Positions 7,806 through 55,577 of a stretch of DNA of 64,000 nucleotides are shown here, in pieces. The notes under the pieces were generated by a model that had not been told where the DNA came from, searched no databases, and saw only the letters and a program-made list of their open reading frames with translations. The stretch is from the NCBI GenBank assembly GCA_964034945.1, contig OZ035961.1, positions 2,641,001 to 2,705,000 of the forward strand. Reading direction: 5' to 3'. A program made the translations under genes and the position numbers. The DNA comes from Chrysopilus asiliformis. Lineage: Eukaryota; Arthropoda; Insecta; Diptera; Rhagionidae. Each line of letters begins with the position of its first letter. The first letter of the stretch is position 1.

Positions 7806-8056
7806 CATGTTCGTGACATTTGCTTTTTCAACTTTTTTTACATTTGGACATCGTGTACCACAGGTGGTACACTAGCGATTTGTTTTCTGGCGGCTGTGCG
7901 CCATCGATGGTACACGGTGCGTGTTTTTATATTTACTTCATAAAATACTGACAATTTATGTTAAAACTATGTTTTTATACTTACGACTGTCAGGAATATT
8001 CAAAAATCGATTGCACTATGCATGTACCACTGGTGGTACACGATATCATGAATTTG
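7806..8056. mobile_element. TTAA-type MITE family A (piggyBac-like), copy 1, decayed
   Basis: 251 bp between TTAA at 7802-7805 and 8057-8060. Ends are decayed versions of CACGTTCGTGACA. Inside each end is a GTACCACNGGTGGTAC palindrome (7857-7872 and 8025-8040). No open frame of note. Confidence 0.8.
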
Positions 8057-8296
8057 TTAAAATAAGGAAATTTTCCTCAGTTTAAAGAAATTCTTCTTCG
8101 AAAAAATATTAAGATTTGTGTATTTTTCAAATGGTTTTATCCTTGGTCTTTTTAAATGGTTTTAATCTTGTAATTTCGCTAATAAAGGGTCTTTCAATAA
8201 GGACATAACAATTTTGTATTTTAATAAAAACGCACCCTAAAACTTTTTTTATGATCTGGCAATGCTAAAACGTCAATCAAGGTTTACATTTTTATC

Positions 8297-8865
8297 ATGG
8301 TGAAGTTCACGAACGAGCAACGCCACACAGCTGGTCAAACAATTGATCTATTGAAGGAGAAGTTCGGTAATCGTGTAATCTCGAGAAATGGTCCGGTCGA
8401 ATGGCCACCTTGCTCATGCGATTTAAGCCTAAACCACAATTACGCGTGCGTGCGTGCGGCATTATTTTGTTCTGGAATCTAGCAGTTGTCACTGCGTCTA
8501 AAAGTAGAGACTGAGCCTACTCTACGCGGCACGGATGCGGCAACGTGTCGGAGCAACGCGCAATTATACATTTACTCATATAAATGCGTTGTTTTTACTT
8601 TCACCGCGTGGGTGCAGCACGCACGCATGCGTAATTGTGGTTTAGGCTTTAACGCCGTTGGATTTCTTTTTATGGGGTTATGTTAAGTCGTTGGTTTATG
8701 CTAACAAGCCAACAACGTTAGAGGAGCTCAGGAACAATATCGAACGCGAAATTGCCAACGTTCCGGCAGATATGTGTGGAAGAGTGGTGGAAAATTGGCT
8801 CCAAAGAATCAATCAGCAAACGTGCTCGCGGTGGCCATATGAACGACATCGAATTTCATACTTAA
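8297..8865 (+). pseudogene. mariner-family transposase remnant
   Basis: Starts MVKFTNEQR, then jumps by internal deletion to HTAGQTIDLLKEKFGNRVIS, the region normally just after the second catalytic Asp motif. Codons 1-43 end at CDL; after the 223-bp MITE the frame resumes as TPLDFFLWGYVKSLVYANKP and runs to the C-terminal GGHMNDIEFHT block. A 1-base frameshift lies near 8815-8820, since the family-like tail is in another frame from the preceding segment. The third catalytic Asp region (CDLTPLDFF) is present, but the first two catalytic regions are gone. In the full family this enzyme cuts and pastes at TA. Non-functional. Confidence 0.85.
8426..8648. mobile_element. TWA-target MITE inside the mariner remnant
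   Basis: 223 bp with ends AGCCTAAACCACAATTACGC / complement, TTA at 8423-8425 and 8649-8651. Removing it with one TTA restores the transposase reading phase exactly, which proves both boundaries. It contains CGTGCGTGCG and GCACGCACGC inverted repeats. Confidence 0.93.
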
Positions 8866-9145
8866 ATGTAACATGTCCACTACACCTGGAATAAATTTCA
8901 GTCCGATATCTCAATTATTCTGTGTTTTTTTTAAATACAAAATTGTTATATCCTTGTTGAAAGACCCGATACTTGCTCAAAAACGAAGAACTTTTCCCCA
9001 AGGCAAAACCATTCCTTTTTATGCTCCATCTTGTTTTTGTCGAATTTCCAAATGTCGTCATTTTCTATTTTTGGGTTCACTTACACTTCTGTTTCATGTG
9101 CTGCATGCGTCTTCTAAGTTATTTGAAGCTCAAATCCCTGCTATA

Positions 9146-9370
9146 CAGGTAAATGCTGTTTTGCGCCGGTTCGATTTACGCCGATTCACAATTACGCCGA
9201 TTCACAATTACGCCGGTTGGTGCTGGCGTGAGATTCCCCGTTTCGGCCGACACCAGACGACAGTAGGCGCCGCGATTCTAATAGCAGACACACGTGTTCA
9301 TTTTACGCTGATTTTTTTTTACGCCGGTGTCTCTCGGAACGGAACCCCAGCGTAAAACGACGTTTACCTG
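9146..9370. mobile_element. Tigger/pogo-like MITE
   Basis: 225 bp, ends CAGGTAAATGCTGTTTTGCG and CGTAAAACGACGTTTACCTG, TA at 9144-9145 and 9371-9372. CAGG ends with a TA target are typical of pogo/Tigger. A ~14-bp internal repeat (CGATTCACAATTACGC) is doubled. Confidence 0.85.
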
Positions 9371-9745
9371 TACTATTATCGAGTGTATTAACTATGGAAT
9401 TTTTCTTGGATCTGCGAATTTGATTTAACATTTATGGCAGAATTGTAATTGACACGCAAACCCATGCTTGTAACACGAAGGAACTATTCCATAGTGAAAA
9501 CCCTTAAGTTGAAACATATTTATAAATTGAAGAAATACTACCTGATAAAAAAAATGTTACAAATGAAACAAAAAAATCAATTTCTGATTAAATAATTTTT
9601 ATTTATCCGAGAGTGCGCCCCAGGGATATGTACCTGCCTCACCCTGTTTTACACAATTTCAAGTTCATGAACAAAAAAAACCCTTAAGTTGCAAAACCTT
9701 CAAAATCGATTAACTTTTCAAAAAAAACTTTTATTTATAGAAAAA

Positions 9746-10072
9746 CTAGCTTGCATACCCGTCGTTGCCGGGTTAAGTTTTTTCAATTTTTTTTTGATGG
9801 TCTATGTTGGAGCTAAATTTCAGGCCAATCGGCTCGGTAGTTTCCCCGCGAAAGGGTAACATAGAGGAAGAGCTAAGTTTTGAGATTACTTTACCCCCTC
9901 CCCTTACCCCCCCCCCCCCCCCCCTCGCGCTACTTTTCCGTATGCCTATGTTGGAACCAGAACTACCATAGAGACTCATGCCAAATTTCAAGTCAATCGG
10001 TTCAGCCGTTTTTGTGTGAAATAGGAACAGACAGACAGACAGACACCAACTCATTTTTATATATTAGTATGA
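9746..10072 (-). mobile_element. Helitron-like element H1
   Basis: Read on the minus strand it begins TCATACTAATATATAAAAAT and ends with the hairpin ACCCGGCAACGACGGGT, then ATGCAAG and CTAG, between A and T. Two internal modules. An 18-base C run lies at 9907-9924. Non-autonomous: no Rep/helicase. Confidence 0.85.
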
Positions 10073-11826
10073 TTAATGGCTGAAGGTATTAAAATAGTAA
10101 GTGGCATCACGGGTCACCATTAAATTTGATTTCAGTATCTAATATACGTTTGTATTTTTGTTTTTGGTAGCCAAATACCACTCGTTGAAGATAATTTAAA
10201 TAATGAGTACTAGTATTTGCTTAAAAATTGTAATATAGTTCCCTAAAATAATAGTAATTTAGTGTAAAAAGTGCACATCGTATGAGATTAAATAGAAACT
10301 TCTTCTGTCATAAAATGCATATAGCTAGTGCACCAAAAATGATAATATATGTACATAACCTAATCAAAATTTCAAAGGGCATTCATACAAAAAGCAATTA
10401 AAGTAATTATTTTTCCTCAAACTGATAGCATTGGTAAATATATTTACTTGTGATTATGAATAATGACTCATCGAAAGATCATAATGAATTGATCAGGAAA
10501 ATATCCGGAATATTATTTTAAATGCGTAAGTTATTAGGCGACGACACTTTTCTATATTTCTCTGCTGCGGCTGATACTGGAATAAAACTGAGACTTTAGA
10601 CAGTTTGCAGATAATATTGGTTCATGGCCTGAGACCCATTGCCTTAAAAATGACACAGGACCGCTAATTATTGATTCATTTAACAAAATTAGCATTTCGA
10701 TCCATGTTTCCATATCGCTTGGAATTATCTTGAATTCAATTTCTCTACCTGGCGGATGTTTATTAATGCTAAGTGGCTATATATCGTTAAGAGTTTCATT
10801 TTTGTAAGTACAAGTGTCACGTTGTCTACGTCTTAGGTTATCGTGTATTTCCCGCCTTGAAAAAAGAGAAAAAACTCATATTAAAAACCATCTTTTTACA
10901 CAATTATACCGTATTAATATCCATATACAAGCCTCTGTTAATTTACCTTGATGTGATATTTTAAAAATTCCTTTTATTCTTTTTTTCATAACAAATTTTG
11001 ATAACTCCTTCATTAATTCTGTTAAGATTTTCTCGACGATATCTTCTTTAAAAAATATATGACAATACAACGAAAATTCGGTCGTTTACGCAAAATAATA
11101 TTTAACTACCGAACTAAAACAATGACAATCGAATTTTCCTATTTTGTTTTCGCTAAGTGTTTCGGTAAACTTCAATTTTTTTATATAAGACCATGCTAAT
11201 ATAATTAATAATCCCAACACTGACCAATCACCAATCCTAACCTAACCTAACACAAAAAAAATCATTTATTTATATCTTAAGTAGAGTCTAAAACAACATG
11301 TAAATATTTAACTTTAATTTGGAAATGAATACTTTATCCCTTGTCGAGTATTATGGAATTATTTAAACACATTGAAGAGTGAATTTACAACTTAAAAGTG
11401 TGAAACTAAAACAATATTTTTATTCAGAAATTTGTATTGAAAATGGAGTCAATTTCCTATTTTTCGTATTAATTGTAATTGTTTTTTCATGTTAATATTA
11501 CGGACAAATAAAGTTTGAATCTATCTTTCATAGTTAACCATTAAATAAATGAAAAGAGACAACATCGTTAGTAGTCACAGTAAAAAAAACGCCAAGATGA
11601 GAGTTCAAATTGTGGAAACAAACAAAAGATTTATAAGTAATAACAAAACAAAACATAATTTACCTAATATACCTACGATTATTCAACTAATGATTGACAT
11701 TTATTGGGTGTGATATGGTTCGATAAAATCATATAGTAAATATTTATTAAAAACTTTAAAAGTTTTTTTACTATTGACATTGATTTATATTAAACCATTT
11801 AAAACTTCATTTTTTTTTGGAAACAA
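10073..11826. other. AT-rich intergenic, nothing recognised
   Basis: No gene or repeat termini seen. It contains three CCTAA units at about 11235-11250, judged chance. Confidence 0.5.
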
Positions 11827-12129: not shown

Positions 12130-12270
12130 AAGTATCACACTCAGCAAATTGTTAATTTTTAATTCTGTGGTGATTTGCCAAAACTTGATAAATACATTTT
12201 TTAAATTTTTAACCAAACAATTTAAAAATTCATATAAAATATGACACGACAAAACTGTTCTCTTGCTGAC

Positions 12271-14360: not shown

Positions 14361-14760
14361 CTAGCTTGCATACCCGTCGTTGCCGGGTTAAGTTTTTTGT
14401 CTAAGTTTTAGAATACGAAGAAAACCCGAAAGAACTTAAAAACTTTTTAATGGGTCTATGTTGGGGCTGGACCCCCGACGAACATCTGTGCCAAATTTCA
14501 GGCCAATCGGTTCAGTAGTTTCCCCGCGAAAGAGTAACATAGCGCAAGAACTAAGTTTCGAAATCACTTTACCCCCTCCGCTTACTCCCCCACCGCTCGC
14601 GCTACTTTTCCGTATGCCTATGTTGGAACCAGAGCTACCACAGATACTCATGCCAAATTTCAAGTCAATCGGTTCAGCCGTTTTTGCGTGAAAGAGGAAC
14701 AGACAGGCAGACAGACAGACAGACAGACACCAACTCATTTTTTTTTTATATATTAGTATA
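14361..14760 (-). mobile_element. Helitron-like element H2
   Basis: Complete hairpin/CTAG end at 14361 and two modules. The opposite end stops at TATACTAAT, lacking the usual TC, where a Tigger-like fragment follows. Confidence 0.8.
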
Positions 14761-17450: not shown

Positions 17451-19005
17451 ATACCGAATACACAGCATAACAGCATACATCTCACTAAACTCAACTGAAT
17501 TGAATTGAATTGAACTGAACTCAACGGAAAGAAGAAGACTTTGAATTTTGTGTGTGCTTTTTGTCTAAACTGTAAACTCTCTTTTTCAATCGAGTGTGTA
17601 CAGAAGTTTTTTCCGAGACCAAACTTTTTGACTCCTATTAACAATATTACATTAACATTTAAATTGCGGATTAACGATAGATAATAGAATCAAACAAGTT
17701 TCAAATATTATTCGTGTATATTTGCAAAGAAAATATCTGGAAAATTTATTAATCGCGAGACGGTCGGTACGGTTTCGGTTTTATAATTGCTACACAAGTT
17801 CTTAAAATAATATAAACATTTTTTGTGAATTATTAAGTGAATCTTAACAAAAAAAAAACTTGTGCAAATCGGAATAATGTCGTTTGGAAACAAGTTGTGT
17901 ATTTTGTAGAATTGCAACTGGATTTTATTAAAGTGTATATATAAATGTAATATTAAATCGAAAAGTGTCTAAAAAAAAATAAAAAAAAATCCCTAAAATA
18001 TATACCTTGGTGATATCTAAATATCCGCTTTACCTGTTGCCAATATGATGAGTTTAGAATCTTATGCTCAAGTCTATTGGTCTAGCAACCTATTGAGAAT
18101 TTCATTGTTGACTCTTGGTACACAGTGACACTAAAGAACCGATGGTACTACTAAATTCAGCATATATTTGTTCGTTGTAGAGGCCAGTTAAGTACAAGAT
18201 ACATTGAAGTGCGATAGTAAAACAAAGTTAAAGAAAACCGATAGCAAATCAAAGTGAAATATTGGTTTATATTAGAATTATAGTATCTATAGTAGAGTAA
18301 AATGAATATTCTGTGTCCTAATAATTCATTTTTTTATTTATGACTGAACAACAGTTTTTACACATCATCATATACGATTATATGTATACGTACAATTTTT
18401 TTTTTAAATAAGTACTCGTGTTTGATGTGCCTACCGATCTCTGCCTGCAGGAATAGGGTTAACGCAAAATATGCAAAAGCATAAATAATTGTAAAAGATT
18501 GTTTCGAATTTCCGCTCGCTTATGTTGGAATTCATTTGCATTGAAATCGTTTGAGCCATCGTGTAAAATCAATGATAAGAGATCAACAACAAAAATTAAA
18601 GGATATTGTAAAGGATAATACATTACAGTGGTAAAATCCATTTCAAATAAATGTACACACATACGTGTGTGCATATACAATAACCAGCGACGTAACTTGT
18701 GCAGAATAATAGAAAGCCACAAACGACGAAGACGAAGAGTATTGCTGAAAAAAGGATGTTTACTTAGAAAAGTGTTTGCCCTGTCAACTAAAAAGCTTTT
18801 TATCAGAATTGTGTTTGTATATATGTGTGCATTCGAGTGGTACAAATAATAACACTGCAAACATCAAGTTAGTGTCGCTGCTGGGAATAGCAGAGAGCAT
18901 AAACATAGTCCCTTTTGTGAATGGTTTCTACTTGCCAAGCCGACCGAGTACCATAAAACAATACAAAGCGGCAAAGGTGTTAAACTATCAAAGGTATAAA
19001 AAAAA
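17450..19005 (+). other. Probable fkh 5' leader and possible leader intron
   Basis: This stretch before the fkh ATG has no long plausible reading frame. It contains A-rich leader-like sequence (for example 18196-18260, rich in CAAAG and GTGAAA). A good splice-acceptor-like site ends at 18450 (CTGCCTGCAG followed by G), so 18451-19005 could be the proximal leader joined to a farther 5' exon. Short upstream ATGs occur, for example at 18470. The transcription start and any donor site cannot be fixed from sequence alone. Confidence 0.4.
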
Positions 19006-20319
19006 ATGCAAAAATTATATCCCGAAACAACAAGTGCCGCTGCGGGTATGTCCGGCGGCAATATGAGTCCTATGGCACCGACTTATAGCATGAATACGAT
19101 GGGAATGTCTGTCGGTGGAATGACGTCGGTATCACCTCAAAGTGCGAGTTTCGGTACGAGCGTTCTAGGATCAGCGGCCGGAATGAGCAGTATGGGGGCA
19201 GCGGCAGCCATGAATTCTATGAGCGGCAACTGTATGACACCGAGTACAATGGGCTATGGGGGTTCAATGGGATCTCCGCTTGGGAATATGGGGTCCTGCA
19301 TGGGTACAGGCATGTCTTCAATGGCCGCAATGGGTGGCTATACAACTGTTGGAACGATGGCTAGCGGACGTGATATTGAGACAGGATCACCAAATTCTAG
19401 CGTACTGCAGAGGTCTCGAGTAGAGAAACCAACAACATATAGACGAAGCTATACACACGCGAAACCGCCTTATTCCTATATCTCACTAATAACGATGGCC
19501 ATCCAAAATAATCCTTCCAGAATGCTCACCCTATCCGAAATCTATCAGTTTATAATGGATCTATTTCCATTTTACAGACAGAATCAGCAGCGCTGGCAAA
19601 ATTCGATTAGACATTCGCTAAGTTTCAACGATTGCTTCGTAAAGATACCGCGCACACCGGATAAGCCTGGTAAAGGATCATTCTGGACACTGCATCCCGA
19701 TTCGGGTAACATGTTTGAGAATGGATGCTATCTTCGCCGGCAGAAACGGTTCAAAGATGAGAAAAAGGAAGCCATGCGACAAATGCACAAGAGTCCTTCA
19801 CATAGTATCGAGGCAACGAGTCCGGGCAAAAAGGATTCTGTACACGATGATCACCACCACCATCATCGCGATCACAAGTCTACCGCAGATTCCCAAGTAT
19901 CCGGCATAATATCATCTGCGCATAGTAAGGACGCTGAAGCTTTGGCCATGTTGCATGCTGGCGCGGAACTGTGTTTAGGCCAACAAGGACCACATGGCCC
20001 GCCACATCACCAACAATTGCAACAGGAGGAGCTATCCGCTATGGTAAATAGGTGCCATCCATCGTTGATAAGTGACTATCATCCTATGCATCATCTTAAA
20101 CAGGAGCCAACAGGAGGTTATACGCCATCAAATCATCCGTTTTCAATTAATAGGCTCCTGCCAACTGAATCTAAAGCCGATATTAAAATGTATGATATGA
20201 GCCAATATGCTGGGTACAACGCCCTAAGCCCACTTTCGAACTCACACGCTGCCTTGGGTCAGGATTCCTACTACCAGAGTCTAGGTTACCACGCGCCAGC
20301 TGGCACGACTAGCTTGTGA
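19006..20319 (+). CDS. fkh: Fork head (FoxA-class forkhead transcription factor), complete
   Basis: This 437-residue protein is a nuclear DNA-binding regulator of the FoxA/HNF3 class; in Drosophila Fork head specifies gut and salivary gland fates. The winged-helix domain spans about residues 151-250, beginning [17 protein letters not shown] and including helix 3 [15 protein letters not shown]. Before it lies a Met/Gly/Ser-rich N-terminus (1-120). After it come a His run (283-287), an LKQEP segment (364-368, which fits a SUMO consensus), the conserved [12 protein letters not shown] block (377-388; the equivalent FoxA region II binds Groucho/TLE) and a C-terminus ending [11 protein letters not shown], matching my memory of Drosophila Fkh. 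The ATG is preceded by an in-frame TAA six bases upstream (18997-18999), so the start is firm, and MQKLY matches the family start. There is no intron in the coding region. At 437 residues it is shorter than Drosophila Fkh, mainly through a less repetitive N-terminus. No frameshift or missing DNA-contact residue was noticed. Confidence 0.98.
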
Positions 20320-21883: not shown

Positions 21884-22102
21884 CACGTTCGTGACATCGT
21901 GTACCACTGGTGGTACATGTACAGTTTTTTAAAACCGCACGAGTAAATAGTGCGGTAGTGTTTTTGTGGAAGTAATATAAAAACACGCACCGTGTACCAC
22001 CGATGGCGCACAACCGACAGAAAACAAATCGCTAGTGTACCACCCGTGGTACACGATGTCCAAATGTAAAAAAAAGTTGAAAAAGCAAATGTCACGAACG
22101 TG
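21884..22102. mobile_element. TTAA-type MITE family A, copy 2
   Basis: 219 bp with perfect CACGTTCGTGACAT / complement ends and TTAA at 21880-21883 and 22103-22106. Carries GTACCACTGGTGGTAC and GTACCACCCGTGGTAC just inside the ends. It is the first clear transposon downstream of fkh. Confidence 0.9.
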
Positions 22103-23239: not shown

Positions 23240-23658
23240 TTGAGCTGAGCGATTTTTTATAAGGAAAATGAAGCAAAATTTCTTATTTAAAAGAAAACAC
23301 CAAAAAAAATTAACATATAAGGGTTGCCACCAGTCCCATATATGGTATGATACTCAAAAAAATTGAGGCAGTACGTCAAGAAATTTATAAAAGCACTGTA
23401 CCGTATATGGTACGGTAGGTCCAAATGGGTTAATAAAAATCGAGTCATCTTAAACAGGATTCTTCAAAAGAAGCACGACCTATCTAATAGCGAAAATACG
23501 ATCAAAATTCCTTCTGAGACTTGGGGAAATAGTATAAGAGGCATTACAGGAATGAGATGAACTGGATTTTTGCTCGCGAATTCAAATTTCTTCAGGGATT
23601 TGACAGATTGTTGACGACTTTTTTAACATATATGCAAATAGTTTGAATTGTAGTTTAA

Positions 23659-23893
23659 CACGTTCGTGACATTTGCTTTTTCAACTTTTTTTGCATTTGG
23701 ACATCGTGTACCACGGGTGGTACACTAGCGATTTGTTTTCTGGTGGTTGTGCGCCATCGATGGTACACGGTGCGTGTTTTTATATTACTTGTAAAAATTT
23801 GCGTCCACAAAAAAACTACCGCACTATTTACTCGCGCGGTGTTAAAAAAAAACTGTACATGTACCACCAGTGGTACGCGATGTCACGAACGTG
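23659..23893. mobile_element. TTAA-type MITE family A, copy 3
   Basis: 235 bp, opposite in orientation to copy 2, with TTAA at 23655-23658 and 23894-23897. Subterminal palindromes GTACCACGGGTGGTAC and GTACCACCAGTGGTAC. Its right TTAA overlaps the target duplication of the next element (23899-24392). Confidence 0.9.
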
Positions 23894-26090: not shown

Positions 26091-26236
26091 GGCCTATGTT
26101 ACACACACACGGCAACTTTAAGCGGCGACTTTTCTTAAGTATAGGCGAAAGTAGTGAGGGAAGCGGTGGCCCCTCACTTCTCTCGCCTATACTTAAGAAA
26201 AGTCGCCGCTTAAAGATGCCGTGTGTAACATAGGCC
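26091..26236. mobile_element. Short TWA-target foldback MITE
   Basis: 146 bp, nearly a perfect palindrome: arms of about 65 bp from GGCCTATGTTACACAC inward, TTA at 26088-26090 and 26237-26239. The end shares TTACACAC...GGCAACTTT with the element at 36265. Confidence 0.9.
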
Positions 26237-27806: not shown

Positions 27807-28027
27807 CCCTCTAACCGGAATATTTCCGAAAAAAATTCACCAAAATATGACTTTCAACTTGCGACAGACCGTAACCAAGACAACGTACAGGGCTAAATTT
27901 TTTCCAGCATGTAAAGCGATAACTTACAAAAGTCAGTGTAACACGTTCCGGCGATTAAAATTGTTACCCATTATAAACAAGCGAATTCCCTGAAGCACGC
28001 CTTTTGTCGGACATTCCGGCTAGAGGG
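27807..28027. mobile_element. TTAA-type MITE family C
   Basis: 221 bp between TTAA at 27803-27806 and 28028-28031; ends CCCTCTAACCGGAATATT and near-complement CATTCCGGCTAGAGGG. CCC ends with TTAA are typical of piggyBac. The left end runs into a CGGAATATTTCCG palindrome. Confidence 0.85.
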
Positions 28028-38929: not shown

Positions 38930-39865
38930 CAGTGTTGTTCCTCTACGCGTAGACTTTAACCCTTCGTTGGACTCCTTGGTACAATTGTACCAATTTCAAC
39001 TTTGAACATTCGATTAGTATGCTAAATATATGCATAGAAACTTAAAATTTCAGGAATGCCTCAATTAAGGTTTGAAAATAATTTTCCGAAAACCAGAATA
39101 TGTTTTAATATTTTGGGTTCCTTTTGAAGCTAAAAAATAAAAAAATGTGCGCCGTTGATCCCCCTTGGTACATTTGTACCACCCGTGTGCAGTGTACATA
39201 GTGTACACTTTTGTAAATGTAAAATCCTGCAATTCAAAAGGTAATCAACAAAAAAAATATTGGCACTTATGGCACCATATGAAATTCCCACTGGTACAAT
39301 TGTACCAGAGGGGTCCAAAGTACGTTGTATGAAATAGGAGTCCAACGAAGGGTTAATTTTCTATACTTCAGTGTAGACAATAGCGTAGACTAAAGATTTG
39401 GGGTAGACAATGTAGACAATGTCGACTTTGCGTAGACAATGTAGACTTTCTCATAGCTGTCAAAACAAAGTGAGTCATATATCTAATACTATACTATATA
39501 GGAAATGGCCAATTACAAGAAATGGCGAAGCGCTGGTGTCCCTAAAGAGTTCAATTTATATGAAAACTCGCTAATTGGGCTCCTCAGAGGCACCAGCGCC
39601 GTGCCTTTAGATTGCATGCATAGAATTAGAATTGCCATTAAAGTTTGCTGCGAAGTTCTTATGTACAGCATTTGGCGATTGCTTCCCGGAAATTGTGCTT
39701 TATTATGTTAAAATTAATTGAAGAGAATGAGATTTTAAAACTAAATCAGCTATCCTTTATTTTATTGATTGTCTACGCGTAGAGAATAGACCATTGTCTA
39801 CAGTAATAATCTACGCGTCGACAATGCTGTAGTCTACATTACGTAGACTACGCGGCACAACACTG
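38930..39865. mobile_element. hAT-like non-autonomous element, middle level of the nest
   Basis: Ends CAGTGTTGTTCC and GGCACAACACTG, flanked by GTTAGAAC (38922-38929) and ATTAGAAC (39866-39873), an 8-bp duplication with one change. The interior has many GTAGACAAT and CTACGCGTAGA units and a 68-codon frame (39505-39711) of unknown meaning. Confidence 0.85.
38960..39352. mobile_element. TTAA-type MITE family D, inner level of the nest
   Basis: 393 bp, perfect ends CCCTTCGTTGGACTCC / complement, TTAA at 38956-38959 and 39353-39356. GGTACAATTGTACC palindromes sit just inside both ends and a GGTACATTTGTACC one lies in the middle. Confidence 0.92.
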
Positions 39866-42500: not shown

Positions 42501-43200
42501 CTAGCTTGCATACCTGTCGTTGCTGCAAACACGTTGGCTACCAGCCAAAAAAAACGCTTACTCCGCTGGGAAAAAACGCAAAAATCATTTCTGTACTTTG
42601 TGAGTCACCAATGAACACAAGATCAATACAGACAAAAACGAATTCCATGCTCCACAAAAAAAACCCCCTTTGTACCGCACGAGCGACTGCACTCAACCAT
42701 GGAACTTGAGAAACTGACGGTAATGACAATAGTGTACACCGGTGACTCACATGGTAGCCAACGTGTTAATTTTTTTCATTTTTTTTTATGGTTTATGTTG
42801 GAGTCAAACTTCAGGCCAATCGGCTCGGTAGTTTCCCCGCGAAAGGGTAACATAGAGGAAGAGTTAAGTTTCGAGATCACTTTACCCCCTCCCCTTACTG
42901 CCGCATCTCTCGGGCTACTTTTTAATGGGTCTATGTTGGGGCTGGACCCCCGGCGAACATCTATGCCAATCGGTTCAGTAGTTCGGCCGCGAAAGAGTAA
43001 CATAGCGCAAAAACTAAGTTTCAAAATCACTTTACCCCCTTCCCTTACTCCTCCCACCCCTCGCGCTACTTTTCCGTATGCCTATGTTGGAACCAGAATT
43101 ACCACAGTTACTTATGCTAAATTTCAAGTCAATCGGTTCAGCCGTTTTTGCGTAAAAGGGGAACAGACAGACAGACAGACACCAACTCATTTTTGTATGA
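42501..43200 (-). mobile_element. Helitron-like element H5 with nested MITE
   Basis: CTAG end at 42501, then the hairpin is interrupted by the TTAA-type MITE at 42530-42765; three modules follow, ending GTATGA at 43200. The last eight or so bases of the usual TATATATTAG are lost. Confidence 0.8.
42530..42765. mobile_element. TTAA-type MITE family B, copy 1, nested in H5
   Basis: 236 bp, ends CACGTTGGCTACCA / complement. TTAA follows at 42766-42769; the left side reads CAAA, a decayed TTAA. Empty Helitron copies have GGGTTAAG here, so the TTAA in the Helitron end was the target. A GTACACCGGTGACTC near-palindrome lies inside the right end. Confidence 0.8.
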
Positions 43201-43920: not shown

Positions 43921-44100
43921 ATGATATACCATATACGAGTATATTAGATTTAGTATACCATTTGTAACGCATCGAAACAATTATCACCCAAAAATTTACT
44001 ACACCTAAAAATATCTTAGGGTTGACAAAAGCTTTTGATTTCTTCATCTCCGTCCGTCTGTCTGTCTGCTATGGACTTGAAATTTTGTATAGTAAATGGC
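43921..44100 (-). repeat. Modular repeat fragment (GCGTTACAAAYGG type)
   Basis: The inverted counterpart of 54700-54857: shares GATGCGTTACAAA, TATACTAAATCTAATATACT and a GTCCGTCTGTCTGTC tract. It leads into the 15-bp minisatellite. Confidence 0.6.
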
Positions 44101-44108
44101 TAGACCAA

Positions 44109-44241
44109 CTGCACCTTAGCGTACTGCACCTTAGCGTACTGCACCTTAGCGTACTGCACCTTAGCGTACTGCATCTTAGCGTACTGCACCTTAGCCTACT
44201 GCACCTTAGCGTACTGCACCTTAGCGTACTGCACCTTAGCC
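44109..44241. repeat. 15-bp minisatellite, about 9 units
   Basis: Tandem CTGCACCTTAGCGTA units, with CATC in unit 5 and GCCTA in units 6 and 9. Because the period is a multiple of three the array is open as a repeated LHLSV peptide, but this is not evidence of coding. Confidence 0.95.
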
Positions 44242-45354
44242 TTAGTAGCTCAATGAATTTTGATGTTTTGAGATCTTCTATACAAAGTTTCTGCTAATAA
44301 TAGATAAAAACCTGTACCAAAATGGGAGATAATTGGTTTGGTCTTTCAGGATGCAAGAAAAATAGAACCCATTTTACAAAAATCCTACCCATTTTATTAC
44401 TTTTATTAATTCTGCATTGCAGCTGGATCTCCGGAGAACACTCATGCTAAACTGATTTCGGGATTTTTTTGGGGGAAGTATAACTGACCAATAACCAAAC
44501 TCATTTTAGTATCGTTTACATGTGTGTGAATAAAAGATTTTCAACATTCCTCAAAAATGACTACCTAAAATCTTACCGTAATGTTTCATTTAGTAATTAA
44601 TTGCAAATTCTTGTATTTTTAAATCCTGAAAAAAATCTGCATCGACATCTCTAAAGCCGCCGCTACTAAGCTTTCAGAATACTAGATCAAAAGTCGTTTC
44701 ATCTTTTTACACATGGACGGTACAGACTCAATGATGAGTATAATTATAACTTTTCACATTTATCTATATACTCGTATTTTCGCAAAGCAGCTTGTTAAAA
44801 TTCACAAAGGGTCTGACTCAGGAATAACTTCTACTGCTTTTGCCTCATTATGCGTCTATTAAGTTCAGAAAATGAATGACGAGTGTATAACTATACGAGT
44901 ACATGAAAAAGCTTTAAATTTTCTTATTTTAACCCAGTACATCTGAGTTATTGACTAAGTCAGTTGGACAAAAAATTCAATGGGTTTAAACTTTGTTTCT
45001 GTGAAAACGACTAAAAAGTCTTCTGATTTATTTTATATTATATAAAAAAATCCTTAAAAAAAATTGAAAAACTGCGAAATGAAAAAAATTCTCAGTTTAA
45101 AATTGGTGTGCATCAGGAAAATCTATTTGTCGTTAGATTTGTATAGCAAGAAATTTTAAATTTACTCCAATGATTTTATACTTTTTAAAGATTTTTTTAG
45201 AGGCTAATTTTTTGAAGAATTTTTTTAGTCGGGAGTTTTTTAAAATTGTTCACTTTAATTTTTTCACTCTTTTTAAATATAATAGTGAAAAAAAAAACTT
45301 TTAATGTTCCATTGAATTTCAAGTTTCTCTGCCAGCAGTTTGTATTTTTATATT
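44242..45354. other. AT-rich intergenic, nothing recognised
   Basis: No gene or repeat ends identified. Confidence 0.5.
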
Positions 45355-47623: not shown

Positions 47624-47898
47624 CTGGTGTTTTACTCAATACAAACACAAAAAAATTCAACTCGTTATCTTTACTCAACACAACACAAAAATTTCAACAC
47701 GGGATAGCGCCACGGGAAGAAAACTTTTAGCGGCACCCAATTAGGAACTTTCTCTACAACTTTCTCTTTGGAATCACCAAAATCGGTCAATCCAGTTAAA
47801 AGTTCTGCGTGAACATCCATAAAAATACATACATATGTGTAGAATTGAGAACCTTGTCCCTTTTAGAAGTCGGTTAAAAATCAAACTTATATAAAAAA

Positions 47899-48475
47899 CT
47901 AGCTTGCATACCCGTCGTTGCCGGGTTAAGTTTTTTCAATTTTTTTTTTTTTTATGGTCTATGTTGGAGCTAAACTTCAGGCCAATCGGCTCGGTAGTTT
48001 CCCCGCGATAGGGTAACATAGACGAAGAGCTAAGTTTCGAGATTAATTTACCCCCTCCCCTTACTCCCCCACCTCTCGGCCTACTTTTTAATGAGTCTAT
48101 GTTGGGGCTGAACCCCCGACGAATATCTATGCCAAATTTCAGGCCAATCGGTTCAGTAGTTTCCCCGCGAAAGAGTAACATAGCGCAAAAACTGAGTTTT
48201 TAAATCACTTTACCTCTTGCCCTTACTCCCCTTACTCCCCCCACCCCTCGCGCTACTTTTCCGTATGCCTATGTTGGAACCAGAACTACCACAGACACTC
48301 ATGCCACATTTCAAGTCAATCGGTTCAGCCGTTTTTGCGTGAAAGGGGAACAGACAGACTGACAGACAGACTGACAGACAGACTGACAGACTGACAGACA
48401 GACTGACAGACAGACTGACAGACAGACTGACAGACAGACTGACAGACACCAACTCATTTTTATATATTAGTATGA
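47899..48475 (-). mobile_element. Helitron-like element H9
   Basis: Complete, CTAG end and TATGA end between A and T, three modules. The usual 3-4 GACA units are expanded to about 98 bp of GACAGACAGACT repeats (48351-48448). Confidence 0.88.
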
Positions 48476-49831: not shown

Positions 49832-50516
49832 CTAGCTTGCATACCCGTCGTTGCCAGGTTAAGTTTTTTCAAATTTTTATTTTTATTTTTTTGATAGTCT
49901 GTGTTGGAGCTAAACTTCAGGCCAATCGGCTCGGTAGTTTCGCCGCGAAAGGGTAACATAGAGGGAAAACTAAGTTTCGAGATGACTCTACCCCCTCCCC
50001 TAACCCTTCCATCTCTCGGGCTACTTTTTAATGGGCCTAATGGGTCTATGTTGGGGCTGGACCCCCGACGAATATCTATGCCAAATTTTAGGCCAATCGG
50101 CTCGGTAGTTTCGCCGCGAAAGGGTAACATAGAGGGAAAACTAAGTTTCGAGATGACTCTACCCCCTCCCCTTACCCTTCCATCTCTCGGGCTACTTTTT
50201 AATGGGTCTAATGGGTCTATGTTGGGGCTGGACCCCCGACGAATATCTATGCCAAATTTCAGGCCAATCGGTTCAGTAGTTTCCTCGCGAAAGAGTAACA
50301 TAGCGCAAAAACTAAGTTTCGAGATTACTTTACCCACTCCCCTTACCCCCCCCCCAGCTCTCGCGCTACTTTTCCTTATGCCTATGTTGGAACCAGAACT
50401 ACCACAAACACTCATGCCAAATTTCAAGTCAATCGGTTCAGCCATTTTTGCGTGAAAGAGGAACATACAGAAAGACAGACAGACAGACACCAACTCATTT
50501 TTATATATTAGTATGA
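49832..50516 (-). mobile_element. Helitron-like element H10
   Basis: Complete copy with four modules. Two middle modules (about 49914-50096 and 50097-50276) are almost identical, including the unusual GTTTCGCCGCG, so they arose by recent tandem duplication. Confidence 0.9.
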
Positions 50517-52179
50517 TTTTACTTCTTTTGATTGCTTATAAACCAGGCCTTTATAGAGAACGGAATAAAAATCTCTATATGAAAAGTTATAGTGGTTTTG
50601 AATGTCAATAACAACGTAGATTGTACTTAGCCATTGTTTAATATTCTCTATCCTAAATATCCTAAGAGCTTTGGAGTGTAATTGTATTTTTCGCTGTAAG
50701 TGCTTTCGGTTTGAAAAATAAGTGAAGGGATAAGGTTTATAGCACAGAAATAACAATGTTTTAACAATTGTGAAACAATAACAACTTTATGTGTCACCGG
50801 ATACAACTAAAATACCAGCCCCTTTTGGTAACTGTTATGAGACGGTGGTAATAATAAAACTTCATAGAAAACAGTAATTGCTTCAATTTGCTTCCAAAAC
50901 ACTTAAATCTCAAGTAGGTCGATTTTTGTGGTTTTACTTGGCCGCAGTACAATATTTTGTGCTGTATATAGAAATAATTCAAAACAAACGTACGTCGATG
51001 CACTACACTAGCAAAGCCCTTTTAAAAATGTCACTTATTCACCAAAGTGCTTTTATTTGCTGATATTTTATTCAGTTTGCTCCTTTCTTCCTTATTTTGA
51101 TTAATCGAATTTCCTTTGCCCCGTCGACATTTTATCAACTTAAAGCGTCTACGCAATACACGCACAGAAAAACAATCCCAACATTTTATTAACTTTGGTG
51201 TCGTAAATAAGTTCAAGATGTAGAGATAAGTTGATATATAGTTTTTCCCAAACATGTTTATCTTAATTCCTAGAGATATGATTGAATTTTGCTATTCTAA
51301 TTGTTATTAAACGGATCTTTTTTAAGGTAGAACAACTGACTTCATCAGTAATGGTTTTAATAGTTTATGAAGGATTTTTTTTTTCTTGTATGTTTTCAGT
51401 TTTCCGTTATGCCCATTAAACTTGTACCAAAAAAATTCTTATTAAATCCTAGATGCTTCTTCACTTCATTCGCTAATACATATATATATCATCATCTCGC
51501 AAAGCGTCATCATGTTAAACTGCAGCAGAGCTTTTCATTTCTTTCGAAAAGTCCATTCTGAAGAATAAAGAAACTAATATAAAATTAACAAAGGTAGGAT
51601 AAGCGCAAACAGAATCCGGGTCTAACTCAGTCCACCAGATATCCGTATATTTGACTTTATTTCAAGCAGCAGAAACCCTTCTAACACAAACATGTCCCCA
51701 ACTTCCATTTATAAGTATATATCTAGGATTCCTGTGTACACTACTCACTCATGATGAATGAGTTAAGATCGCATAAGTTAAGTAAGACATCACGAAGTTG
51801 AAAAGCACTTGTTAAAATATTAACAGATGTCCAAGAGTATGAACGCACGACATCATATTTTTTTCGTTTTTGATCCTTGGGCTTTAGTGGTAGTACAATA
51901 TCCTGTCTACCCACTGCACTCGTAATCTGCCAAGAGTACGATTTCTTTCATATATAAGTTAGAGGGGTGTGCATTGCCGTAAAATACCTCAATTTCAAGC
52001 GTGAAAATGAACTCTCAATTGAAATAAAGATTTTTATATCAGAAAAATACTTTCCACTTAGATATTTAAAAAATTTAAAAAAATTTTGAAAGACAAACTT
52101 TCATTTTTAAAAAAATATTCGGAAAAGAACAAAAATAGTTTTTTTTGGTTCCTCGTTTGGTTCCGACAAACTGCAATTT
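50517..52179. other. AT-rich intergenic, nothing recognised
   Basis: No gene or repeat ends identified between Helitron-like H10 and H11. Confidence 0.5.
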
Positions 52180-52620
52180 TGCATACCCGTCGTTGCCGGG
52201 TTAAGTTTTTCAAATTCTTTTTTTTATGGTGTATGTTGGAGCTAAACTTCAGGCCAATCGGTTCAATAGTTTCCCCGCGAAAGGGTAACATAGAGGAAGA
52301 GCTAAGTTTCGAGATCACTTTACCCCCTACCCTTACTCCCCCACCTCTCGGGTTACTTTTTAATGGGTCTAAAATTTATGCCAAATTTCAGGCCAATCGG
52401 TTCAGTAGTTTCCCGCAAAAGAGTCTCATAGCGCAAAAACTAAGTTACGAAATCACTTTACCCCCTCCCTTTACTGCCCCCACCCGCGCTACTTTTCCGT
52501 ATGCCTATGTTGGAACCAGAACTACCACAAACACTCATGCCAAATTTCAAGTCAATCGGTTCAGCCGTTTTTGCGTGTTAGAGGAACAGACAGACAGGCA
52601 GACGCCAACTCATTTTTATA
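52180..52620 (-). mobile_element. Helitron-like element H11, truncated both ends
   Basis: Hairpin end present but GCAAGCTAG is cut to GCAAAA; the other end stops at ATGAG and runs straight into a CATACGGG repeat. One module is partly deleted. Confidence 0.75.
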
Positions 52621-52977
52621 CCCGTATGGTGAAACCAAAGGGTAGGTATAATAGATTTGCCTTACCGTTTGTAACGCCAAGATCCCGTCATCACACACAA
52701 AAATGAATTACACCAGTGTGTTTAGAATGATAAAAAAAAGTTGAATTTAGCATGTCCGTCCGTCTGTCCGTCCGTCTTTGGCGCGGATTGCGGGCGTACG
52801 GATTGAGCTAGAGACTTGAAATTTTGCACAGATCCGTTTTTCGTAAAATGCGAGGCTAAGTTCGTTAATGGGCAAAAATGGACCATTAGGGGGGGGGGGG
52901 GGGGGGGTACCCCCCATACGAACGAAAACATTTATTGTGAATATCTCAAAAACGGTGCATCTTAACAAAAAAGTCCA
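52621..52977. repeat. CATACGGG repeat family, copy 3, truncated
   Basis: Joined on the left to a truncated Helitron-like copy and cut on the right by a TTAA-type MITE fragment. Contains a 19-base G run (52889-52907) where other copies have shorter G tracts. Confidence 0.65.
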
Positions 52978-53223
52978 ACAAAAAAACGCTTACTCCGCTA
53001 GTATACACTGGGAAAAAATGCAAAAATCATTTCTGTACTTTGTGAGTTACCAGTGAACACAAGATCAATACAGACAAAAACGAACGAATCGAATAAAATA
53101 TAACGGACAAAAAAAACCCCCCTTTGTACCGCACGAGCGACTGCACTCAACCATGGAGTTTGAGAAACTGACGGTAATGATAATAGTGGGTGTACACCGG
53201 TGACTCACATGGTAGCCAACGTG
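52978..53223. mobile_element. TTAA-type MITE family B, copy 2, left end missing
   Basis: Matches 42547-42765 but begins inside the element, fused to the CATACGGG repeat. The right end GGTAGCCAACGTG is followed by TTAA (53224-53227). It carries an insertion of about 20 bp after AAAAACGAA relative to copy 1. Confidence 0.75.
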
Positions 53224-53227
53224 TTAA

Positions 53228-54247
53228 GGCGGCAAGGGTACCAGAGCCGTCTCTGCTTTAACAACTGACTCTCCTACCTCTTATTCCACCTTCAAGCAGT
53301 CTCAAGATTCAGGTCAAGCTACTCCACGGTTTTCTCCTGCAAGGATCACAAACAAACGCAGACCCTCGTTGCGCAGTGCGCACATGGAAATCGCGCAGAT
53401 TAAAAATTTCTACAAAGTTATGGCCGCGATCAAACTTTGGTAATAAAAACCTAATCATCACATAAAGAGCATACAAAAAATTTGAATTCTTTATTTGAAA
53501 TTTCATTAAAATTTAGAGAGAAATAAGGAATTTAAATGGCTGCCAACAATTCAACATTTAGTCAAGTCTTATATTTCGAGTTACAATTGATCAATCAATG
53601 CAAAGCGACAAAAAGAAAAGCACTCCCATCCCATCAACTCAAGGTGCCAGGTAAGCACACCCATCCCAGGCAATCATCGACTTTAAAATAAAACAAAATA
53701 TTGACTTAGCGGCAAAAGATAAAAACAGCCCGAATGCTCAAATCCTTGTAGGTTGCGTCGACATGAAAACTCTTATGATCATTTCAGCTCATTGTGGCAT
53801 TCAGATTTCTGTTTGCTTTAAAAGACCACCCAAACTGAGGCTTCTATGTGCAAACTTTTAGAACCATTTTTTTTTTGTAACTATGATTTTGTATTTAAAA
53901 AAAAATAATTCGCTGATTGCACAATTTATGGTAATGCTCCCACAAGATTCATAATCGTTATACTAAATTATGTAATTTCATGCAAGCTTACAAAAAAGAT
54001 GCAATTTTATAATATTATGATGTCCAAGAATATGTAGCTTTAGGCTATTAAAATTTTAATTTATTTTCATCACGTGATGTATCTAAATTGTAATATGAAC
54101 TATACAGAGAACCTGATAAAAACCAATAAAGTCCGTAAGCCAAAAAAATTTTTAATAAAAAAAATTATTACACAAAATGTCTGACTAAAAGTAAAAAGAC
54201 AAAAATACTGCTGGGATTTTGAGTGTGACGGGATAGTAAAAACAACT
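53228..54247. other. Intergenic, nothing recognised
   Basis: 53230-53410 is less AT-rich than the surroundings, but no protein or RNA was recognised. Confidence 0.4.
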
Positions 54248-54250
54248 TTA

Positions 54251-54630
54251 AGGTGCCGCTCCACATGAGAATAAATACGCGAGTAACTCTCAAAAACTCT
54301 CGAGAGTTACTTGCTGAAGGTTGTCAATTTGAGAGTTAATTTAGGCGATTTTTCTCTTTTCAAGACCAATATCTAGATTTTTTTGACATCTTGCTTTGGC
54401 GAGTTCTCAAGAGCAACTAGCGAAATTCAAACGCCGTTCGCATATGGCGAGCAACTCTCCGAGAATAGGTGCGTGTCGACTGGAGAGTAGAATCACTTTT
54501 GACAGCTCGCAGAAACTAGCTCGCGAGTTTTTGCGAGTTTCTGCGAGCGACTCTCAGAGACGTGTCCATTTGCGAGTGGCTGCTATCGAGAGGTTCTCGC
54601 CGGTATTTACTTTCATGTGGAGCGGCACCT
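54251..54630. mobile_element. TWA-target MITE family M, copy 2
   Basis: 380-bp copy of the element at 4237, inserted in the opposite orientation and flanked by TTA at 54248-54250 and 54631-54633. A ~25-bp deficit relative to copy 1 lies inside. It again sits beside modular-repeat sequence, which continues to 54857. Confidence 0.8.
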
Positions 54631-54633
54631 TTA

Positions 54634-54857
54634 GCCTTGCCATTTGCGAGAAACGCAATTATACAAAATTTCAAGACTCTAGCTCAATGCTATCAAAAGT
54701 TATGGTGAAGGACGGACATACGAATGGACAGACACACAGACGGTCGAACATGCGGAAATCAAAATCTTCACAAATACTTGGTGTAGTTTGTGGTGTCCGA
54801 CGATTGGTTCGATGCGTTACAAACGGTATACTAAATCTAATATACTCCTATATGATA
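54634..54857 (+). repeat. Modular repeat fragment (GCGTTACAAAYGG type)
   Basis: Follows MITE M copy 2. Contains GAAACGCAATTATACAAAAT, the GGACAGACACACAGACGG tract and ends GTTACAAACGGTATACTAAA, abutting Helitron-like H12. Confidence 0.6.
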
Positions 54858-54859
54858 TA

Positions 54860-55180
54860 CTGGCTTGCATACCCGTCGTTGCTGGGCTAAAGTTTTTTGT
54901 ATTATACGTTTTAGAATACCGAAAATACGGGAAAGAAATTTTGAGAAGAATCTTTTCCTTGTAGGACTTTCGATTTCGAATTAGTCTAACATCACATTCA
55001 TGATCAGCGATCCCGAAAATCCAAAAATATCAATTTTTCCCAGAGAAAATGGAAAAAATAATATTAGGTTATCCTTGCAGGTAATTCGGTTTCGAATTTT
55101 CAAATTGTAACACTGGATTCGTGATCAGCGACCCTGAAAACTCTTAATGCAGTGGATTTTCATATTCAGTGGTTTTTCAT
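54860..55180 (-). mobile_element. Helitron-like element H12, second subfamily
   Basis: End reads GCAAGCCAG (a CTAG variant) with the hairpin, then TTTAGAATACCG and two modules of the CAGCGA(T/C)CC(C/T)GAAAA type rather than the main body. The far end near 55180 is not defined. Confidence 0.6.
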
Positions 55181-55358
55181 ATTTTCGGTAACTTTAATTC
55201 GCATAAAATAATAATTTCAGGATTCTCCGGAACGTTGTCAAATTGAGGTTTCGGGTAATCGAGAATAACAGAAGAAAATAGTAAAGCTGCTAAAGAAGGA
55301 AAAATCTGCATCTGTCCGTGATGTGGGGGAAAAAAATGAAATACTACTTGAGTTTTAA

Positions 55359-55577
55359 CCCTTAATTGATGAGGTGGGTCCAGTGGACCCACATTGACTT
55401 TTCTCTCTTTGCTATTTATCATGTTTTCAGCACAGTGACTCTGAAATCTTCAGTACCTTCATACAGTATGGTATTGTATGCCGAGTTAAAAGCACGGATT
55501 TGGTATGTGATTAGAACAAGTCCATTGGAAACCAGCTCATCATTTACGCATATGATTTTCACCTCATAAATTAAGGG
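55359..55577. mobile_element. TTAA-type MITE family E
   Basis: 219 bp between TTAA at 55355-55358 and 55578-55581, ends CCCTTAATT(GATGAGGT) / near-complement. A GTGGGTCCAGTGGACCCAC palindrome lies directly inside the left end. Confidence 0.85.

Follow-up and report, generated by a model that had tools for sequence, protein, structure and literature searches.

Subterminal palindromes of TTAA-flanked MITEs in the fly Chrysopilus asiliformis follow a piggyBac layout linked to transposase class

The window analysed here, 64,000 nucleotides of Chrysopilus asiliformis (Rhagionidae; assembly GCA_964034945.1, contig OZ035961.1, positions 2,641,001 to 2,705,000), raises a simple question: why do short elements with different terminal sequences all carry a palindrome close to their ends? 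A first-pass annotation had listed five unrelated TTAA-flanked MITE families, A to E, each with a short inverted end followed at once by a palindromic word. The coordinates and words that it named are all present in the sequence.

Family A has three copies with TTAA at both flanks: A1 (7806..8056, minus strand, 251 bp, right TIR decayed), A2 (21884..22102, plus strand, 219 bp) and A3 (23659..23893, minus strand, 235 bp). Their LE, which we take to be the promoter-side end, is the right end of A1 and A3 and the left end of A2. D (38960..39352, plus strand, 393 bp, class I layout as defined below) and E (55359..55577, plus strand, 219 bp) are likewise flanked by TTAA on both sides, with LE on the left, as is element C (27807..28027, 221 bp, TIR 14/16), listed on the plus strand with its orientation not set. 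The claim of TTAA flanks thus holds for A, C, D and E but not for family B: B1 (42530..42765, minus strand, 236 bp, LE on the right) has TTAA on the right side only, its left TSD having decayed to CAAA, and B2 (52978..53223, minus strand) keeps an intact right LE and a truncated left end. The insertion point of B1 lies within another interspersed repeat, which reads TTAA in three of its four printed copies (9744, 47897 and 52172) and TAAA in the fourth (37217). Among 30 fetched genomic copies of A, including A2 of the window, 25 have TTAA on both sides.

A search for paired inverted ends over all 652 TTAA sites of the window (ends of 16 bp with 12 or more matching, the leading four identical, 80-3000 bp apart) gave eight pairs: A2, A3, C, D and E were all recovered, along with one cross-pair (A2 left with A3 right) and two others. 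The two further TTAA inverted-end pairs of the window lie at 59789-59906 and 26122-26209. Neither Rfam (gathering threshold) nor a tRNA search gave any match in the window. The short TIR starts with C in A, B, D and E. "Unrelated" proved too strong for these families: their palindromic words are family-specific, but A and B both start with CAC and share CACGTT, and B, D and E have the core GT[C/A] in common, at bp 20-22.

Whatever the word, the LE palindrome of A, B, D and E is centred 25-25.5 bp from the terminus. In A the axis is at bp 25.5 in each copy (A1, 8023..8040, minus; A2, 21900..21917, plus; A3, 23861..23876, minus), and a second palindrome is centred 57.5 bp from the RE terminus in A1 (7853..7872, minus) and A3 (23706..23725, minus) and 58.5 bp in A2 (22035..22054, plus). 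A2 holds an additional decayed copy with its axis at 22001.5 (RE 101.5). D carries a perfect 18-bp palindrome at axis bp 25.5 (38976..38993, plus), an inner copy centred 214.5 bp from LE (39165..39182, plus) and an RE copy centred 53.5 bp from that end (39291..39308, plus). The presence of palindromes at both ends of A and D is therefore borne out. That the palindrome follows the TIR at once is true of one end only: at the other it sits deeper, by 28 bp in D and 32-33 bp in A. In E, the word GTGGGTCCAGTGGACCCAC (55374..55392, plus, axis bp 25.0) recurs nowhere else in the element, RE included, when at least 12 of its 19 letters must match. The imperfect palindrome ascribed to B has the same axis, bp 25.5, but amounts to an 8-bp core, CACCGGTG, in B1 (42737..42744, minus) and B2 (53195..53202, minus); B1 has a decayed copy at RE 80.5. 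C had been given the same plan wrongly: its palindrome CGGAATATTTCCG (27816..27828, plus, 5+3+5) is centred at bp 16 and overlaps the TIR, and its bp 24-26.5 zone palindrome is not significant (shuffle p 0.67).

The palindromes of A, D and E are above chance level. Among 127,920 centres of the window, 20 palindromes score perfectly (8/8 arm pairs); in ten of these GC makes up 25% or more, and nine of the ten fall within A, D or E. When 1304 TTAA-anchored ends of the window were scanned blind for palindromes with their centre at bp 24-26.5, E, D, A1 and A2 took the top four ranks and A3 the sixth. A2, D and E each reach p 0.002 by dinucleotide shuffle, the lowest value that this test can return.

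The first-pass annotation did not know of such sites being described; they are in fact already published for T. ni piggyBac, MER85/PGBD3, piggyBat and MER75/Looper. The 19-bp internal repeat of T. ni piggyBac is a palindrome at bp 17-33, with its axis at about bp 25, and others have shown that a CRD dimer binds it (PMC7351741). In human MER85/PGBD3, a 16-bp palindrome lies 3 bp inside the 5' TIR and was shown to be needed for PGBD3 binding, its replacement cutting binding by 80% (PMC3459987). piggyBat has imperfect palindromes (PMC11707139), and binding by its CRD has been shown too; the inner repeats of human MER75, MER85 and Looper are drawn as palindromic (PMC12324416). The window finding reduces to this known piggyBac layout. 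The T. ni ends (IFP2, LE35/RE63) resemble those described here in TTAA, TIR, palindrome axes at LE bp 25 and RE 53, and the CRD dimer site; LE bp 7-35 is repeated in the RE interior, and the LE/RE offset of 28 bp (53 minus 25) is that of D. The words, however, differ. D and the eight class I families have a third copy near LE 200-217, the T. ni comparison being with LE35/RE63 rather than the full element.

TTAA MITEs of insects and corals, coral CMITEs for example, are similarly short, TTAA-flanked and piggyBac-related, and the main text of the CMITE paper (PMC2872659) has no word beginning "palindrom". A literature search with the MITE end sequences returned only unrelated subjects, judged by title. 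Pattern matches in IMG/VR (four stretches for the T. ni TIR, two for the A TIR) were rejected and read as chance, since none of them runs on into a piggyBac end. In viral contigs, scans by protein alignment gave 124 and 91 pattern matches, none confirmed.

Do the MITEs have transposase-bearing partners in the same genome? For B the answer is yes: L037, an autonomous-looking element of 2444 bp with an identical TIR (14/14), encodes a 575-aa PF13843 transposase and carries the subterminal palindrome. Its sites are spaced by 42 bp at LE and by 44 bp at RE (copies at 89.5 and 133.5). D has a TTAA-flanked relative of 1589 bp, L084, with palindromes at 25.5, 215.5 and RE 53.5, but its PF13843 (DDE_Tnp_1_7) domain is only a remnant (24.0 bits against a cut-off of 22.4), closest to class I. 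L080 and L082 are copies of D and L085 is another relative, none of them readable by exact end words. End words of A, E and C, at up to three mismatches, flank no transposase in the 40 transposase loci (duplicates included) of 124 matches. A second C copy with both end words lies in or beside locus L059 and does not flank its transposase. End searches with A and E gave copies of MITE length only among the best 40 of 1020 and the best 40 of 758 candidates, respectively. B and D are thus tied to piggyBac-like transposases of this genome. From their TTAA, ends and palindrome we infer that A and E are piggyBac elements as well; C is probably one too, though it has no palindrome at bp ~25. The contrast drawn earlier with shared descent was wrong in part: B and D can be tied to one superfamily, and the half-sites of the class I words retain GTC as their core, always in one register.

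A survey of the piggyBac transposase families of this genome extends the pattern. The first set comprised 30 loci in 19 families, L037 among them; L063 was dropped for want of a convincing TIR, and L044 and L050, repeats of F03 and F10 with no pair of ends, were left out. Ends were the best TTAAC pair with four identical leading letters, and for F05, F07 and F19 the LE axis was picked manually. A held-out set of ten further loci, hand-picked from the same list, gave four new families (H1-H4); L067, L072 and L073 were set aside as F17, F05 and H1, and L071, L074 and L076 for having no usable end pair.

A palindrome centred at bp 24-26.5 is significant by shuffle test (p < 0.05) in 15 of the 19 families (Fisher 3e-19). 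The remaining values are p 0.48 for F19 and 0.05-0.08 for F05, F16 and F17. The stronger palindrome of this zone is on the gene's 5'-side end in 21 of 23 transposase-bearing families, F07 and F19 scoring higher on the wrong side. Off-axis scores exceed zone scores in F05 (28), F06 (21), F07 (28) and F19 (40.5); in F17 they do so by a small margin on its stronger side (16.5). The palindrome of L074, which is a class I transposase locus, lies at 15.5. In all four held-out families the LE axis lies at 24.5-25 on the gene's 5' side, and the inner copy is missing in one. Counting copies from 13 matching letters of 18-19, and leaving out B's family, an RE copy is present in 21 of 22 families and an inner copy also in 21 of 22, against a chance expectation from shuffled half-sites of about 0.1 per class and window. 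This threshold is only just reached by both copies in F08 and F17 and, in F06 and F07, by the inner one.

The copies adopt two geometries, which follow transposase class. In class I (T. ni-type), the RE copy lies at ~50-53 and the inner LE copy at ~200-217; in class II (piggyBat-type CRD), they lie at ~137-142 and ~350-400. The LE/RE offset is 25-28 bp in the eight class I families, and D shares this layout, with the same word at LE ~25 and RE ~53, 28 bp apart. CRD profiles were built from four class I families, matching T. ni piggyBac, and nine class II families, best matching piggyBat; the CRD of F01 is in neither. Independently of geometry, class was checked through protein similarity in H1-H4, F13, F14, F16, F17, L074, L077 and L084, and by tree for 16 rows, in which F01, F02 and F10 are long branches. 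Class windows for the copies were set once the positions of the first set were known, which leaves H1-H4, L077 and PGBD3 alone as independent tests of position. L077, an element of another organism and the one confirmed among 70 pattern matches of a prokaryote-genome scan, fits the layout roughly (zone p 0.011, mononucleotide shuffle). PGBD3 has three palindrome copies, of which the final one is separated by 114 bp from the 3' TIR, close to the class II RE position by arithmetic that assumes a TIR of ~14 bp; its palindrome too is imperfect. Its word is different, PGBD3 is domesticated, and MER85 retains a single palindrome. piggyBat (Myotis lucifugus) has its imperfect palindromes 3 bp inside the core motif on LE, yet its own layout is three LE motifs 44 bp apart and an RE without palindrome, unlike the class II families here with palindromes at RE ~140 and LE ~375. 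L037, whose transposase scores highest against piggyBat among solved structures, is nearer to piggyBat in its spacings than these families are, except that its sites are not confined to LE. Across the 22 families compared, which fall into two classes, the arrangement of end palindromes is linked to transposase class and with it to CRD type, the latter checked in four class I and nine class II families.

A, B, D and E are very probably non-autonomous piggyBac-superfamily elements whose bp ~25 palindrome is a site for a transposase CRD dimer, the dimeric binding site suggested at the outset being the best reading of a palindrome also present in L037 and L084. By analogy with the systems above, piggyBac-like transposases of the same genome would move the elements and insert them at TTAA. 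The transposase core would recognise the terminal ~16 bp, and two subunits would use their C-terminal cysteine-rich zinc domains (CRDs) to grip the LE palindrome about its two-fold axis. Additional dimers may bind where this word is repeated, at RE and in the stretch from LE to the gene: the RE copy probably aids synapsis, the inner one is probably regulatory (autoregulation or inhibition).

Alternatively, the palindromes might act as DNA, a cruciform or hairpin aiding excision or stalling replication. Several words are near-perfect palindromes of 16-20 bp, and a preprint notes that such repeats could theoretically form these structures (PMC12324416). However, many arms are imperfect or just 5-6 bp about an unpaired centre, the T. 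ni and MER85 sites are protein-bound, and the axis stays at bp 24.5-26.5, with copies at near-fixed distances, while the word changes. We rejected the idea as very improbable. More improbable still is a convergent likeness, the elements belonging to another TTAA-targeting superfamily such as Sola3. TTAA targeting is not exclusive to piggyBac, and A and B start with CAC, not CCC; but the same CAC ends flank the piggyBac transposase of L037, CAC opens the PF13843 families F16 and H3, and D has a PF13843 relative. Host transcription-factor sites acquired by transposons would agree with the one copy found upstream of the longest frame's first ATG in the 19 families compared, but a single host factor would yield a single word, whereas the words are family-specific, copied at both ends and arranged by transposase class: this reading, rejected too, is extremely improbable. 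Chance palindromes spotted after the fact, which may account for C, are otherwise a practically negligible explanation, rejected on the in-window ranking, the 19-family test, the held-out families and the element of another organism.

Beyond the CRD-dimer reading, we lean, just past even odds for all its parts jointly, towards a three-site code for piggyBac. Each family would own a palindromic word that alters symmetrically in step with its CRD and stands at three places, LE axis bp ~25, a single RE position and a single inner LE position, in two distance classes fixed by the CRD fold. Class II would be the piggyBat/PGBD type, common to flies and primates, so that ends would be predictable from the transposase and vice versa. 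On this reading, MITE copy number is far higher in A and E, which dropped the inner site, than in D, which kept it, as would fit an inhibitory or autoregulatory operator. A 2021 paper finds no straightforward correlation between CRD fold and end organisation in the available data (PMC8086355); the class-geometry rule is therefore the new part, and we found no published account of it or of a three-site rule in the open-licence literature. According to the same paper, the survey of Bouallegue et al. sorts piggyBac ends into four structural groups (PMC8086355), which may overlap with the three-site rule.

The palindrome layout was known from piggyBac; what is added here is that most of the related families studied repeat it at near-fixed positions. 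The class-geometry rule would allow ends to be predicted for uncharacterised piggyBac elements, would show which sites a vector should retain or lose and would open the inner site's role to experiment. Amplified MITE families that have lost given sites are natural deletion experiments, E having amplified with one detectable palindrome.

The palindromes of the window's TTAA-flanked MITEs lie at a nearly constant distance from one end. Counted from the terminus, the axis falls at 25.5 in A1, A2, A3, B1, B2 and D and at 25.0 in E; we call this promoter-side end LE and the opposite one RE. The first-pass annotation gave one plan to all five families, and its named words and coordinates are all found in the window sequence. 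The plan stands for A, B, D and E at one end; C departs from it (axis 16, p 0.67 for the zone at bp 24-26.5). The palindromes that it placed near both ends of A and D exist, those at RE being deeper: 57.5 in A1 and A3, 58.5 in A2 and 53.5 in D. T. ni piggyBac, scored identically from published sequences, has axes at 25.0 (LE) and 53.0 (RE), so D carries its 28-bp offset. A third copy lies in D, 214.5 bp from LE; in A a further, decayed one lies 100.5-101.5 bp from RE. Decayed copies of the B word lie 80.5 bp from the left border in B1 and 74.5 bp in the truncated B2. For E, a search for an RE copy found none.

In the window, 20 of 127,920 centres score 8 of 8 arm pairs. Ten of these 20 are at or above 25% GC, and nine of the ten fall within A, D or E. 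Among 1304 TTAA-anchored ends, the top four for a zone palindrome are E, D, A1 and A2, with A3 sixth.

A blind search for exact TTAA pairs with inverted ends recovers A2, A3, C (27807-28027), D and E. It also gives one A2/A3 cross-pair and two further pairs (59789-59906 and 26122-26209). The latter two have perfect 16-bp inverted ends starting with neither CCC nor CAC; ends resembling those of 59789-59906 also occur near 1355 and 40240. A1 (7806-8056) has TTAA at either side. The left TSD of B1 is CAAA, and its flanks match an interspersed repeat whose element-free copies carry TTAA at the B1 site in three of four examined (9744, 47897, 52172) and TAAA in the fourth (37217). B2 has lost its left end. 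The repeat family, built around TTGCATACCCGTCGTTGCCGGG with (ACAG)n-like tails, has many copies in the window (for example 9741-9916, 14419-14594, 47898-48235 and 50009-50355), in one of which B1 is inserted. Another TTAA-CCCATT end lies on the minus strand at 23310-23429; its palindrome (CGTACCATATACGGTACA) has axis 24.5 and recurs 89.5 bp in. This appears to be the LE of an unlisted element close to class II (piggyBat-type), with no matching partner end within 4 kb. A 15-bp unit, ACTGCACCTTAGCGT, is tandemly repeated at 44093-44257, and the window also holds a fork head gene (ORF 19000-20319). Among the matches listed, the closest relative of this gene is from Hermetia illucens, at 87% identity, and two sand flies come next (81%); the host is accordingly a fly, probably close to the lower Brachycera.

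We searched the 429-Mb genome for copies and transposases. The PF13843 profile gives 124 matches; 30 loci were taken first, and 40 transposase loci were read overall. The 30 yielded 19 families with readable ends (F01-F19), L063 being dropped and L044 and L050 yielding no end pair. Each family was scored in the zone at the better of its two ends, with p obtained by shuffling. The first-pass annotation proposed testing TTAA MITEs for an excess of subterminal palindromes over shuffled controls; in these transposase families p is below 0.05 in 15 of the 19 (Fisher combined p 3e-19). The others are F05 (0.068), F16 (0.054), F17 (0.074) and F19 (0.48). F06 and F07 pass, yet have stronger palindromes off-axis, at 21 and 28; off-axis scores are also stronger in F05 (28), F19 (40.5) and, slightly, on the stronger side of F17 (16.5).

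In a transposase tree of 16 rows, with long branches for F01, F02 and F10, families F03, F11, F12, F15 and F01 separate from eleven others (support 100/99). The CRD, the C-terminal cysteine-rich zinc domain, was profiled for each group, leaving F01 out of both. The profile of F03, F11, F12 and F15 has T. ni piggyBac as its top match (6x67, E 8e-4); the T. ni CRD alone (5lme) gives E 0.02, and an unrelated ribosomal protein E 0.017. The profile of nine of the eleven other families matches piggyBat (9c0f, E 3e-6), the next match being at 0.33. We refer to the groups as class I (T. ni-type) and class II.

The positions of the further word copies split by class. Each element was scanned with its family's LE word, and copies were counted from at least 13 matching letters in class windows. 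These windows were fixed after the scans, making the following counts partly circular for the first 19 families: class I has an RE copy at 49.5-53 and an inner copy, between LE and gene, at 200.5-216.5, each in 8/8; class II has an RE copy at 137.5-141.5 (13/14, F19 missed) and an inner copy at 350.5-398.5 (13/14, H4 missed). With shuffled half-sites, about 0.1 would be expected for each class and window. No family has a copy of at least 13 letters in the opposite class's windows, where the highest is 11. The 13-letter threshold is only just reached by F17 and F08 (both copies) and by F06 and F07 (inner copy). In 19/19 families the first ATG of the longest open frame comes after the inner copy as one moves in from LE, the gap being, for example, 43 bp in F01, 44 in F07 and 72 in F10; this frame is truncated in several families, and the true start is possibly nearer the inner copy. 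Such a placement suits an operator or inhibitory site.

Ten further hand-picked PF13843 loci gave four held-out families, H1-H4. By protein similarity, judged separately from geometry, H3 is class I and H1, H2 and H4 are class II. Their LE axes are 24.5, 24.5, 25.0 and 24.5, on the 5' side of the ORF in all four, and their RE copies lie at 140.5, 139.5, 52.0 and 140.5. Inner copies occur at 371.5 (H1), 382.5 (H2) and 203.0 (H3); none was found in H4. Over the 23 families, the stronger zone score is on the 5' side of the ORF in 21, the exceptions being F07 and F19. The H4 element, at L075 (C1:65567700-65572000), contains an F09-type transposon end (TTAACCCTTTCACTCGGC...) lying 118 bp in from its left end, either a nested insertion or a chimera. 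Locus L074 (C1:68397100-68401400) is an exception: class I by protein and with a normally placed inner copy (203.5), it has its first copy centred at 15.5. This position is closer to the terminus than usual by roughly a helical turn, and much like the axis at 16 in C.

Beyond the fly, a complete-looking piggyBac with an open 615-aa frame (L077) occupies a contig of 3.25 kb (QNXQ01000067.1) that is catalogued with an Aquifex MAG, probably animal contamination. Its protein is class II and its LE axis 24.5 (zone p 0.011, mononucleotide shuffle). Inner copies lie at 384.5 and 425.5 and RE copies at 150.5 and 191.5, each with 13-14 of 18 letters; the RE copy is about 10 bp past the fly range. Human PGBD3 has three palindrome copies, one near the 5' TIR, one 59 bp ahead of the ORF and one 114 bp from the 3' TIR; in MER85 the palindrome is 3 bp inside the 5' TIR (PMC3459987). 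By our arithmetic, assuming a TIR of about 14 bp, the 3'-side PGBD3 copy would be at about RE 137. PGBD2-4 reportedly have a Pgm-like Cys/His arrangement, a fold suggested for the piggyBat CRD (PMC8086355).

We aligned the words on the palindrome axis, numbering letters from the terminus. All eight class I words contain G-T-C, the G falling at bp 19-21; at 20-22 the words of E and B read GTC and those of D and T. ni GTA, and the A word has neither core. Outer letters vary with matched changes across the arms (arm positions 4-9). Two-sided versus one-sided differences number 62 versus 29 in class I and 214 versus 103 in class II, as pairwise counts, not independent events, with no computed null. 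The first-pass annotation favoured a conserved requirement over shared descent. The class I words, with their common GTC core, are partly homologous and did not arise independently.

Of the transposase partners with the same ends, also proposed there, one was found for B; for D there is a relative with a transposase remnant. Locus L037 (2444 bp) has B's TIR, 14/14 letters at either end, and a 575-aa ORF matching PF13843 (2.4e-85); compared with solved structures, the ORF scores 179.7 bits against piggyBat and 105 bits against T. ni piggyBac. Its site pattern is distinctive: LE 25.5, 67.5 and 256.5; RE 89.5 and 133.5. The D relative L084 (1589 bp) carries the three D sites, at 25.5, 215.5 and RE 53.5. 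A fragment encoded in it scores 24.0 bits against PF13843 (cut-off 22.4), and the locus is nearest to class I transposases. In none of the 40 loci read, roughly one in three of the 124 matches and including duplicates, is a transposase flanked by the end words of A, E or C. C has a further copy, bearing its two end words, next to the transposase element L059 (near L059 3756-3994). The C TIR starts CCCTCTA, as in class II families F07, F08 and H2, and differs from L045 and L069 at 3 of 18 letters.

At first look A has 1020 genome candidates, the best 40 scoring 97-100%; E has 758, the best 40 scoring at least 98%; D has 56, of which 40 were scored, with 46 matches. All 30 A copies read (window A2 included) have axes at 25.5 and 57.5/58.5, and 25 have two-sided TTAA. 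The four E copies read, including the window's, are all 219 bp with TTAA. Exact end words delimit a complete D at four of six loci read, the window's own among them; all four keep three sites, the inner one at 214.5-216.5. E has amplified with a single detectable palindrome; A has done so lacking an inner LE copy at the distances of either class. D retains three sites and has far fewer candidates. With three families compared, an association of inner-site loss with high MITE copy number is only a hint.

In T. ni piggyBac, the core binds the terminal repeat and a CRD dimer binds the palindrome, bending the DNA; the cryo-EM structure places this dimer on bp 17-33, its minor-groove centre near bp 25, while RE bp 34-63 nearly repeat LE bp 7-35, and a second dimer is likely required in cells (PMC7351741). 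The fly transposases would bind likewise, core on terminal repeat and CRD dimer on palindrome. A third LE site restricts piggyBat transposition (PMC11707139), and the inner LE copy may be an operator or inhibitory site. The first-pass annotation knew of no description of such sites; palindromic internal repeats are already on record for piggyBac (PMC7351741), MER85/PGBD3 (PMC3459987), MER75 and Looper (PMC12324416) and piggyBat (PMC11707139). In the open-licence literature searched, we found no statement that places the axis near bp 25 in many families of a single genome, or that divides RE and inner positions by CRD class; a 2021 paper sees no straightforward correlation of CRD fold with end organisation in existing data (PMC8086355). 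Judged from sequence, the window's MITEs belong to a known kind and are ordinary examples of it; the mark that they carry, a putative binding site, is real and has functional meaning. The three-site, two-class rule is the part that deserves specialist attention.
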